A model generated the notes under the pieces. That model was not told the DNA's origin. It saw only the letters and a program-made list of their open reading frames with translations, and made no database searches. Below, piece by piece: positions 5,140 through 9,941 of a stretch of 64,000 nt of DNA. Position 1 is the first letter of the stretch, and each line of letters starts with the position of its first letter. Location: positions 62,001 to 126,000 of the forward strand of contig JAHKAM010000034.1 of the NCBI GenBank assembly GCA_018826515.1, written 5' to 3'. This stretch comes from Alphaproteobacteria bacterium (lineage in GTDB: Bacteria > Pseudomonadota > Alphaproteobacteria > Caulobacterales > Caulobacteraceae). The translations under genes and the position numbers were made by a program.

Positions 5140-7515
<2,376 letters not shown>

Positions 7516-7527
7516 AAATCCTCCGAC

Positions 7528-7790
7528 GAGAAGAAAGTTCGCTATCAGCGAATTTAGTTCTTGATTTTTTCTCCTGCTTGAGTCACTCTCTCCACAGTTA
7601 GAAACAGCGGAGAACGTCATCACATCTGGAGCTTCGGCTCGCGGGGGGCTTGCGTCCCCTACCGCTTGAGTGCCCACGGGTCCTCCTCCCTCCTGGGGCG
7701 GTGGTCCCCCGGGTGACCCAAGCGAGGCCCGCGATGACCGCGGGCCTCACGGTAAGTGGTTTGGCCGCCGTTTCCGCACCTCAAGTCGAG
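7528..7790 (+). ncRNA. Structured intergenic region, candidate retron msr-msd RNA
   Basis: The 322 bases between uvrB and the small retron-side gene contain no supported gene but dense inverted repeats. A weak hairpin TTCGCT-ATC-AGCGAA (7538-7552) sits inside an outer AT-rich stem (7528-7536 with 7565-7573) and may end the uvrB transcript. Then follow GAGC-TTCG-GCTC (7629-7640), an 8-bp GC stem 7641-7665, a long-range stem CGCTTG (7663-7668) with CAAGCG (7719-7724), and a perfect 10-bp stem 7724-7733/7739-7748 with loop ATGAC. Some of these stems compete. GCTTGAG (7576-7582) can pair with CTCAAGT (7780-7786), a possible a1/a2 closing stem. Boundaries are approximate; the assignment rests on position upstream of the retron operon and on structure. 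Confidence 0.5.
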
Positions 7791-7837
7791 ATGACCCCGT
7801 CCACAATCACGTGGCGGGCGACTGGAGGATTATCCAA

Positions 7838-7999
7838 ATGGATAAGGAAACTAACGAACGGCGGCAGCAGTTGAAGAGGCAGGGAGGGTTGTCATCATGG
7901 CTTCGCTCTCCTGCTCTGCTCAAGTGGTCATTCCGCGTTGGAATGGGTGCTTACCGCCTCTGGCGGGTCTGGCAGTGGTTTAACCACCCGGAGGGCTAG
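7838..7999 (+). CDS. Small basic amphipathic protein of the retron locus
   Basis: A 53-residue reading frame beginning MDKETNERRQQLKRQGG, with a strong ribosome binding site TGGAGG nine bases upstream of the ATG. The N-terminal third is highly charged. The rest (WLRSPALLKWSFRVGMGAYR then LWRVWQWFNHPEG) is rich in Trp, Arg and hydrophobic residues and could form an amphipathic or membrane-associating helix. It lies 39 bases before the XRE gene and 39 bases after the structured region, so it probably shares the transcript. I do not recognise a family. A toxin or effector role is inference from size, composition and position. An upstream in-frame start at 7670 would translate the structured RNA and is rejected. 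Confidence 0.6.
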   Translation: MDKETNERRQQLKRQGGLSSWLRSPALLKWSFRVGMGAYRLWRVWQWFNHPEG

Positions 8000-8038
8000 G
8001 CTGCTTCCATCTTATCATATTTTGGAACGGAGATTATT

Positions 8039-8362
8039 ATGCTGTCCGAAGCGTTGAGGTTGATGAGAGTATTTCACGACCTAAAACAACAAGACCTTGC
8101 TGACAAACTTGATATTTCAAAGTCTCATTTGTCGGAAATTGAAAGTGGAAAAAAGGTTCCTTCATTAGATCTAATTGGGCGTTATTCTGATGTGTTTGGA
8201 GTTCCTGCATCTTCTATATTGTTCTTTGGGGAGAACGTGAAGGATGGGGAAGTTAGAAGCGCCGATCAAAAGGTAAAATCTGCGATCGCGGGAAAAGTGG
8301 TGCAGTTTCTGAAATTTATCGAGACTAGGACTGATGGCAAGCATCAAGGCATACGCGCTTAG
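8039..8362 (+). CDS. XRE-family helix-turn-helix regulator of the retron locus
   Basis: 107 residues with an N-terminal Cro/CI-type helix-turn-helix (LKQQDLADKLDISKSHLSEI ESGKKVPSLDLIGRYSDVFG, residues about 15-55) and a short charged C-terminal tail. Ribosome binding site GGAG six bases before the ATG. Base composition is clearly lower in GC than the flanking chromosome (codons such as TTT, AAA, ATT are common), a sign of horizontal transfer. It overlaps the reverse transcriptase gene by 29 bases, so the two are translationally coupled. The likely role is DNA-binding partner or regulator in a retron with an HTH accessory protein; whether it is the effector or a neutraliser cannot be read from sequence. 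Confidence 0.88.
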   Translation: MLSEALRLMRVFHDLKQQDLADKLDISKSHLSEIESGKKVPSLDLIGRYSDVFGVPASSILFFGENVKDGEVRSADQKVKSAIAGKVVQFLKFIETRTDGKHQGIRA

Positions 8363-9227
8363 GGACAGTCCGTTTTTTAGGCTGAAATCTAAGTCTAAGC
8401 TTGCAGATATTCTTTTTGTATCTGCAGAGAAACTTGAGAGATTGGCAAACGATCCAAATCGTTATTACAAGTTCAAAAAGCCAAAGAAAACTGGCGGCGA
8501 GCGCGAAATATGCGCGCCCAATCCAGCATTGAAAGCCGCGCAGAAGCGCATATCGCAGCTTCTGTCGCGGATAGCGCCGCCAGATTACCTGTTTGCCCCT
8601 GTATCTGGTCGGTCATACGTCGATAACGCGGCAGTCCATGTCGAGGCAAAATCGTTGCATCTTTTGGACATCGACAGTTTCTTTCCGAACTGTCGAGTAG
8701 AGAAGGTAGCATGGTTGTTTGCAAAAAAACTCGAGTGCTCACCAGATGTTACTGCGATCTTGTGCAAAATCGTCACCTATGAAGGTTGTTTGCCTCAAGG
8801 TAGCCCCTGCAGTCCGATTTTGGCGTACTTGAGCTACATCGACATGTGGTCGGAGATCGACGCGTGCGTCCAGGCAGCATCTTGCAAACTTAGTGTCTAT
8901 GCCGACGATCTCACAATATCTGGAGACTTGGTTCGAGGAGAGACTGTCTGGGCTGTAAAGAAGATTCTCTACAGACATGGACACCAGTACGCGGTCGACA
9001 AGGAGCGATCATGTCGTGGGCGACCGGCAGAAATTACTGGCGTAATTCTGCATCGCAATGAAGTGCGGGTGCCTAACCGGCAGTATCATCGGATCTATGA
9101 GATTCGAGGCCGTCTCCGCGCAGCTTCGACAGACGAGGCAACTACGTTGCGCCGCCAACTATCTGGCCGCCTCGCGCAAATGGCGCAGGTTCGGGCTGGC
9201 AATAGGCACAAGAGCCCGCAAGCTTAG
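8334..9227 (+). CDS. Retron-type reverse transcriptase
   Basis: 297 residues. It makes a branched RNA-DNA (msDNA) from a cognate structured RNA. Ordered RT motifs are visible: KPKKTGGEREICAPNPALK (fingers), NAAVH with LDIDSFF (catalytic Asp at about 112; the NAxxH signature is retron-specific), LPQGSPCSP (about 153-161), YADD at 189-192, and EITGVIL at about 233, equivalent to the retron VTG motif in the region that binds the RNA. No fused effector domain is present and there is no maturase (X) domain, which argues against a group II intron. The gene overlaps the XRE gene and is AT-richer than its surroundings. Together with the upstream RNA candidate and small protein it forms a complete-looking retron operon. 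Confidence 0.93.
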   Translation: MASIKAYALRDSPFFRLKSKSKLADILFVSAEKLERLANDPNRYYKFKKPKKTGGEREICAPNPALKAAQKRISQLLSRIAPPDYLFAPVSGRSYVDNAAVHVEAKSLHLLDIDSFFPNCRVEKVAWLFAKKLECSPDVTAILCKIVTYEGCLPQGSPCSPILAYLSYIDMWSEIDACVQAASCKLSVYADDLTISGDLVRGETVWAVKKILYRHGHQYAVDKERSCRGRPAEITGVILHRNEVRVPNRQYHRIYEIRGRLRAASTDEATTLRRQLSGRLAQMAQVRAGNRHKSPQA

Positions 9228-9239
9228 CGATCAATGCGA

Positions 9240-9254
9240 GGGCACCTGGTGCCC
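9240..9254. repeat. Short perfect palindrome after the reverse transcriptase gene
   Basis: GGGCACC-T-GGTGCCC, 7-bp arms with a single central base, 13 bases after the stop of the reverse transcriptase. There is no following T-run, so it is not a standard terminator. It could be a protein-binding site or a transcript-stabilising hairpin. Confidence 0.4.
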
Positions 9255-9374
9255 GTTCTCGGCGAAAAATCTATATACGGTGTTGCCAGTGTGTTCTGGC
9301 TCCATATGTGGGGTGTACGACCGGAATTGACGCGTGAGTATGGTCAGGTCGCCCTGTCAGAACGGAGCGAACCA

Positions 9375-9941
9375 ATGGCATGCAACGGCTTCAACCATCC
9401 CCCCGATTGCCAATGCCCGTTTAGGGGCGGGCACGGCGGCAGCGCACTGCCCCGACCGGTACGCGCCGCTCCACTTCTGGGAGCCCTTGCGCCACCCGTT
9501 TTGGCGCGGTCTTTCAAGCTTCGACCGAAGCCCTGTCCGAAGTGCGGACAGACCACTTATTTTGTCAGGGCAGAAAACGGAGGCAGATATCGAGCAGCCG
9601 CCGATGGCTCCATGTTGCGGCACAACTGCCCCAAAGAGACGCCGCATAGACCCCTTCGTCACAAACGCGCTTCCTCCACCCAGGGGTGGTTCTCAGCCAC
9701 CCTTATGGAAGTAAGGGCGCGGGGTGGCGGGACTGGTCAGGCGCTGTTGGTTACATCACTGGTTGGACGACCGTTCCGTGTGCGCTTGCAAGACGGGCTC
9801 ACAGTCGATCCGCTTGTTCCCGCGCTCTGTCATTGGTCGGAAAACGACCGACGGGTCTTGGAAATCGCCTATCAGGATCGACACACGGGCGAGCTGACAG
9901 AGACCCGCATTTATGGGCGGCGGTTGCGCGGGCCTGGCTAA
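9375..9941 (+). CDS. Cys/His-rich protein of unknown function, putative zinc ribbon
   Basis: 188 residues from the ATG at 9375, which has GGAG seven bases upstream. The N-terminus MACNGFNHPPDCQCPFRGGH has closely spaced Cys and His, and a CPKCG pair with a later Cys (RHNCPKE) at about residues 50-85 looks like a second metal site. The C-terminal half has no recognisable motif. I recognise the NHPPxCxC arrangement only as a recurring feature of uncharacterised proteins; no function can be named. It lies 147 bases after the retron reverse transcriptase on the same strand and may be island cargo or a separately transcribed gene. Confidence 0.7.
   Translation: MACNGFNHPPDCQCPFRGGHGGSALPRPVRAAPLLGALAPPVLARSFKLRPKPCPKCGQTTYFVRAENGGRYRAAADGSMLRHNCPKETPHRPLRHKRASSTQGWFSATLMEVRARGGGTGQALLVTSLVGRPFRVRLQDGLTVDPLVPALCHWSENDRRVLEIAYQDRHTGELTETRIYGRRLRGPG

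Follow-up and report, generated by a model that had tools for sequence, protein, structure and literature searches.

A type VI retron after uvrB in a Caulobacteraceae genome, with a conserved small basic protein as candidate effector

INTRODUCTION

Which component of a retron could act as its killing part when the operon holds, besides the reverse transcriptase (RT), only an XRE-family regulator and a protein of 53 residues? This question is raised by a locus found in the window, the stretch of 64,000 nucleotides of an alphaproteobacterial contig (JAHKAM010000034.1, Caulobacteraceae) that was analyzed here. The initial annotation, made from the letters of the DNA, described the locus as a retron with an XRE partner, a small basic Trp/Arg-rich protein and a structured upstream RNA, considered that this three-protein form might be unreported, and proposed that the small protein is a toxin held in check by the RT with its msDNA and by the XRE.

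In the accessible portion of PMC8541194 (2021), type VI retrons are described, after Mestre 2020, as an RT with a DNA-binding protein and a small auxiliary protein, and a short ORF, an XRE gene and an overlapping RT gene are reported in phages. The three-gene form is therefore not new, and the suggestion of novelty falls. In this study, we compare the locus with its relatives and ask which of its parts are kept together.

MATERIALS AND METHODS

The 30 loci compared (the window, which is L003, together with L004, L005, and L016 to L042) were drawn from genome searches (E 1e-45 or 1e-62) and from 14 of 49 plasmid and phage matches. These 14 come from named records, namely nine plasmids of Alphaproteobacteria or cyanobacteria, one plasmid each of Staphylococcus and Enterococcus, and three phages (Escherichia, Burkholderia, Klebsiella). 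L006 to L015 and L043 to L049 were left out of the 30 after the ORF lists had been read.

Small ORFs were chosen by eye from ORF lists before the leave-out test, in which each locus was removed together with its near copies, a profile was built from the rest, and the 36–93 ORFs of the locus were ranked by it. Fragments holding the msr were excised manually from every locus except L021, L031, and L032 (27 of 30). MAFFT alone aligned the hairpins poorly, and the evidence on them consists of folds, a descriptor and pair counts rather than of a covariance model.

RESULTS

The locus at 7528–9227 consists of a retron RNA followed by genes for a 53-aa protein, an XRE regulator and an RT, all on the + strand (Table 1). 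The RT start overlaps the XRE end by 29 nt; the SD of the small ORF (GGAGG, 7824–7828) and a separate SD-like stretch belonging to the XRE gene were both read by eye. The NAAVH, YADD, and ITG stretches, also seen by eye in the RT, are what we take to be retron-type RT motifs, and the NAxxH, V/ITG, and YADD assignments of the initial annotation hold, as do its coordinates. It was likewise right that the locus is AT-richer than its flanks, with GC at 46–50% per 1-kb window between 7501 and 9000 vs. 61–68% in the windows just outside. Among the PADLOC profiles, RT_VI gave 303.9 bits vs. 150.2 for the next-best model, and with the HTH_VI match of the regulator the proposed retron with an XRE partner can be named as type VI. 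The best sequence matches among solved structures were the retron RTs Ec67 (E 4e-18) and Ec86. The profile libraries used, PADLOC and Pfam among them, revealed no further effector domain in the operon, in agreement with the earlier statement that a conventional effector is lacking; the XRE contained only HTH domains in Pfam, and an Rfam search returned only a tRNA.

Table 1. Features of the retron locus, in positions of the window
Feature	Position	Strand	Basis and remarks
Palindrome TTCGCTATCAGCGAA, putative XRE operator	7538..7552	+	Sole match in 64 kb at ≤1 mismatch
Putative promoter: TTGATT, 17 nt, CACTCT (weak −10)	7561..7589	+	By eye, by analogy with the TTGAC-like box after the palindrome in relatives
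a1 strand of retron RNA, GCGGAGAACG	7607..7616	+	Pairs with a2 in the MFE fold
msr hairpin H1 (GAGC-UUCG-GCUC)	7629..7640	+	Fold and comparison with relatives
msr hairpin H2 (GCGG...CUAC)	7641..7662	+	Fold and comparison with relatives
Probable msd: variable arm 7664–7723 and 10-bp hairpin 7724–7748	7664..7748	+	MFE fold; predicted
a2 strand, CGUUUCCGC	7769..7777	+	Pairs with a1
Small-ORF leader hairpin; CCUC at its base is paired with GAGG of the SD	7779..7828	+	Fold
Small basic Trp-rich protein, candidate effector	7838..7999	+	53 aa, net charge +6, 5 Trp
XRE-family regulator (HTH_VI)	8039..8362	+	107 aa; PDLC02926 E 8.4e-32; Pfam HTH_3 E 3.6e-12
Retron reverse transcriptase, type VI	8334..9227	+	297 aa; PDLC02952 (RT_VI) E 2.3e-91; PDB retron Ec86 RT E 1e-15; tree

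Placement of the window RT in a phylogeny, one of the checks proposed with the initial annotation, puts it inside the type VI clade: a branch with support 100/99 separates the RTs of all 30 loci from 15 other RTs, and this split is the same as the selection made from the ORF lists (L012 and L015 stand outside the tree). The 30 loci span Proteobacteria, a cyanobacterium and Bacillota. Within the tree set the RT closest to that of the window is L021 (45% identity), and among the matches listed, the best 120 of 786 homologues at E 1e-20, the top one with an organism name is a Brevundimonas RT (66% identical), so that the host probably belongs to this genus. In the family of the host, 13 of 390 genomes gave an RT match at 1e-45, and three of these belong to the type VI clade according to the tree, in which L012 and L015 have no place. 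Searches of further contig sets added two distant loci in genome contigs, which were left out, and none in viral contigs. Of 5426 complete E. coli genomes, 98 contain relatives of the phage element P2_2H1 that cover at least 80% of the query.

The small gene is the part on which the toxin proposal depends, and the order small ORF, XRE, RT recurs in the other genomes: an ATG ORF of 33–67 aa with an SD-like stretch directly precedes the XRE gene in all 30 type VI loci, its stop falling between −25 and 57 nt relative to the XRE start used. The leave-out profile ranked this ORF first in 27 loci, with failures in L032, L036, and L037. For the window, it was the top match among the 54 ORFs of the stretch (E 1.4e-5) of a profile built without it; by contrast with these ranks, the profile of all 30 small proteins found nothing better than E 0.011 in 16 other RT loci. 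When 23 of the small proteins served as queries in a database search, 16 members were obtained at E 0.01; seven of these were inspected, of which the four small ones were the query sequences themselves and one was P0133. This protein is equal in length to the small protein of the window and 77% identical to it across all 53 residues, and P0133 and the RT homologue P0006, with longest contig 2935 for both, suggest a linked pair. That the 53-residue ORF is real, as the initial annotation had it, is borne out by this homologue and by the leave-out match.

Selection on the small ORF was assessed in two sets of pairs. The dN/dS was 0.30–0.54 in seven of eight close pairs, the eighth being nearly identical and uninformative. 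For a set of four E. coli variants with one Klebsiella phage, the ratio was 0.15–0.61 in the nine computable of 10 pairs, vs. 0.04–0.09 for the RT in nine computable pairs of the same set, which indicates that the small protein is kept but evolves faster than the RT. As a separate observation, the E. coli loci L072, L074, and L075 are mosaic: their small ORFs are nearly identical (dS 0 and 0.11) and their RTs stand at dS of about 1.5–1.6, so that in these variants the block of RNA and small ORF and the block of the RT seem to recombine apart.

All 30 small proteins have a net charge of +2 to +14, and each contains a hydrophobic or amphipathic segment, mostly C-terminal, a count made with no control set alongside. 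The best 19-residue Kyte–Doolittle mean of the window protein (0.32) is the lowest of the 30, and because of this low hydrophobicity it is no clear transmembrane protein. It has no match in PADLOC, Pfam, NCBIfam or PHROGs, and the ten small proteins that were tried against PADLOC models had none there; the counterpart in the Klebsiella phage matches two PHROGs of unknown function.

The highly structured RNA claimed upstream is also substantiated, since positions 7590–7840 fold at −116.5 kcal/mol (z −3.0) with none of 200 shuffles as good, and it is recognizable in most relatives. Folds gave two hairpins in 26 of the 27 msr fragments and one in L022; the second hairpin starts with G[UCA]GG in 23 of 27 (by eye), and six of nine predicted msr pairs show pair-keeping changes on both sides in a plain MAFFT alignment of 24 fragments. 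A hairpin descriptor, read from the same loci on which it was scored, detected the unit in 21 of the 30 loci. In 20 of these it stands 185–254 nt before the small ORF, and in L030 at another position. Shuffles did as well at most twice in 200 (nine in 500 for the window). The descriptor missed L019, L020, L021, L022, L023, L026, L027, L032, and L042, L021 in the first run only.

Immediately after a2, the small ORF has a leader of its own. With a second small hairpin over the start codon included, 7778–7845 folds at −29.2 kcal/mol (z −4.6, 0/200 shuffles). Across the 30 loci the 72 nt before the small ORF have a median z of −2.33, with 16 below −2 and the window at −1.95, vs. a median of −0.18 and none below −2 for the 72 nt before the XRE gene (paired p 3e-7). 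In the E. coli and Klebsiella set, the leader stem varies by eye between CCATAGTG..CACTATGG and CCATGGTG..CACCGTGG, with one pair changed on both sides, one turned into G-U and the innermost lost. Blocking of the SD by the leader was considered as a general rule and rejected, as SD pairing did not differ between the small ORF and the XRE gene (p 0.12).

The relatives share a palindrome with the consensus TTCGCTnnnAGCGAA, which lies 275–393 nt ahead of the small ORF and in most cases is closely followed by a TTGAC-like box (by eye). Scored over the 30 loci from which this consensus was itself read, it reaches 12/12 in 11 (the window included), at least 11 in 17 and at least 9 in 25, and in each of the 17 loci with at least 11, none of 100 shuffles of the locus's own 480-nt upstream stretch equaled the score. 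None of 16 other RT loci reaches 11, their best scores in 600 nt being 7–10. For the window, a match of the TTCGCTATCAGCGAA type arose in 16 of 100 shuffles of the whole stretch; when the 480 nt ahead of the small ORF were shuffled, none of 100 had one. Variants of the site are often symmetric (TTCACT/AGTGAA, GTCGCT/AGCGAC, ATCGCT/AGCGAT). XREs with the recognition-helix stretch SRSYV (L020, L022, L032) go with the TTCACT or GTCACT form, and those with divergent helices (L019, L036, L038) with absence of the site; the score is below 9 in five of 30 loci, among them L035, which has 8/12 despite an ordinary recognition helix. Since some loci are close kin, the correspondence of helix and operator is suggestive only. 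On this comparison, the XRE probably binds the palindrome at 7538–7552. A consensus promoter scan found none at the window site, where the −10 box is poor. The idea that the XRE reads an operator motif inside the msd was found unsupported, with a well-scoring site only in L020 (10/12).

The uvrB gene ends at 7515, directly upstream of the retron locus. Of 61 genomes searched within the genus, the window's own among them, 59 match the end of uvrB at E 0.001; the match is substantial in 54 and only trivial in the other five. The far flank is matched in 15 of the 61, and at E 1e-14 or better in only eight. The slot after uvrB, which in the window spans 7516–9941, is filled differently across the 10 regions that were fetched (ORF lists; L062–L071), and six of the seven slot regions tested hold genes with full or partial PADLOC matches. 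The cargo in relatives includes an Eco29kI-type restriction-methylation pair, SIR2 with an AAA partner, an MT-A70 methylase, a DitA-like gene, a piece of an OLD-like ATPase and a HATPase, several matches being partial. Judged from these fillings, the site after uvrB is a cargo hotspot in which several of the occupants are defence-like, and the context supports a putative role of the retron locus in defence.

Downstream of the RT, no gene is common to the 30 loci. In the window, an ORF of 188 aa with a CPKCG motif (9375–9941, +; 235 aa from an upstream ATG at 9234) begins 147 nt after the RT; it has no known domain in the profile libraries and no plasmid homologue. On alphaproteobacterial plasmids, TIR-domain genes stand 79 or 19 nt after the type VI RT (L028:3468–4427, L029:3393–4358, L031:3393–4358), the domain being confirmed in L028 and L029 and taken from the annotation in L031. 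In L039, two small ORFs at 38 and 342 nt after the RT resemble by eye a nucleotidyltransferase/HEPN pair. A downstream ORF as a standard part of the system was rejected, as these genes vary or are absent among the 30 loci.

DISCUSSION

In this study, we demonstrate computationally the parts of the locus, their order, their clade membership and their conservation. As read from its DNA, the locus is an intact-looking type VI retron: the RT is of the retron type with YADD, NAxxH, and VTG-like motifs, the predicted msr-msd RNA shows a1/a2 pairing, the RT falls in the type VI clade, an HTH (XRE) gene lies directly upstream, and a gene for a small auxiliary protein is present. Compared with retron type VI as known (Mestre 2020; PADLOC RT_VI/HTH_VI), the window is alike in RT and HTH profiles, gene order, XRE/RT overlap and upstream small ORF, and differs in nothing in kind.

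The nearest described systems are the P2-like and Mu-like phage retroelements ST147-VIM1phi7.1, P2_2H1, KS5, and MuM16-1. In the accessible portion of PMC8541194 the XRE overlaps the RT in all four, and an upstream short ORF is reported for three; we found one for KS5 too (L037). Their RTs are 33–35% identical to that of the window, and the phage loci L036 and L038 lack the operator. Type V loci (L045, L047, L049) and loci on the V/VI border (L043, L044, L046) have related RT profiles and a small ORF immediately ahead of the XRE or RT gene, with a hydrophobic C-terminus in L045, L046, L047, and L049; in L044 and L046 the RT_VI score equals or exceeds the RT_V score. All of them nevertheless lie outside the type VI clade, and their small proteins are unmatched by the type VI profile. 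No XRE appears in the ORF lists of L045, L047, and L049, whereas the border loci keep the order small ORF, XRE, RT and differ from type VI in the absent operator and the unrecognized small protein.

Retrons of other kinds can also have an HTH or XRE gene next to the RT, as mentioned in the accessible parts of PMC12548924 and PMC8934634. In Retron-Sda1, deletion of the HTH gene left defence unchanged, a result attributed to a separate HipA system (PMC12548924, in part). Retrons in a P2 hotspot are likewise on record (PMC9122126, accessible text). A search of titles and abstracts, with most subscription papers outside it, found no functional study of type VI retrons. As far as the accessible literature goes, neither the operator nor the leader has been described before; both are details of a known retron type.

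We consider it fairly probable that this type VI retron is defence cargo whose small cationic amphipathic protein is an effector restrained by RT-msDNA and the XRE. The small protein is the best candidate for the killing part, because the small protein, the control site and the RNA parts tend to stay together across phyla. The toxin hypothesis of the initial annotation is consistent with the conservation, the charge and the amphipathic helix, and with this comparative support it is the best available. A single promoter marked by the XRE-bound palindrome would give one transcript with the msr-msd RNA, the small ORF, the XRE and the RT, and the RT would copy the msd into msDNA, forming a ribonucleoprotein. 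The small cationic amphipathic protein might act on membranes or on a protein target, and would be silenced by RT-msDNA together with the XRE as co-antitoxin and autoregulator. If a phage interfered with the msDNA, the RT or the XRE, the small protein would be freed or over-produced, and the infected cell would stop. Moreover, control of the small ORF at the level of translation is suggested by its structured leader. The tripartite toxin-antitoxin system of Retron-Sen2 (RcaT) follows the same model of RT-msDNA as antitoxin in the available part of PMC11676413, the model being for our locus a conjecture, and its effector is another protein.

Could the small protein instead be an adaptor or antitoxin, for example one that tethers RT-msDNA to the membrane or to the XRE, with harm coming from misregulation by the XRE or from a host target? 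We regard this as unlikely. The XRE has HTH domains only in Pfam, and better known retrons have their effector in the additional gene. On the other side, the basic N-terminus of the small protein could bind RNA or DNA, and the XRE alone, apart from the RT, is equally universal. A winged-helix partner does bind msdDNA in a type IX retron, according to the accessible portion of PMC13405049.

That the small ORF is a regulatory leader peptide, whose translation through the structured leader would set XRE and RT expression and sense translation stress, appears quite unlikely to us. It would account for the structured leader and for an ORF between the RNA and the XRE in 30 of 30 loci; conservation at the protein level with purifying selection argues against it, as do the own SD of the small ORF and the separate SD-like stretch of the XRE gene (by eye). 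Very unlikely, too, is that the effector of the window locus is the downstream ORF at 9375–9941, by analogy with the TIR and other genes at this position in further type VI loci. The short distances of the TIR genes in L028, L029, and L031 and of the ORF in the window would fit, but what follows the RT varies from locus to locus, some of the 30 having no gene there, and the window ORF is without known domain or plasmid match. A decayed or non-defence retroelement retained by chance is highly improbable, given that all frames are open, the RT motifs are present, the operator is perfect and the RNA is foldable.

Returning to the small protein as effector, a more specific version is possible, though we hold it to be doubtful: in a peptide-effector retron, one transcript would serve both as template for msDNA and as mRNA of a cationic amphipathic toxin of less than 70 aa, with the leader directly after a2. 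The XRE, with one operator across phyla, would set the supply, copying or processing of the RNA by the RT would decide toxin synthesis, and phage interference with the msDNA would release the toxin.

Type VI is a widespread retron class. The small-protein family, the operator and the leader, common to members from Bacillota through Proteobacteria, narrow the "unknown effector" of this class to a few testable points, and the P2_2H1-like relatives in E. coli make type VI retrons amenable to study in laboratory strains.
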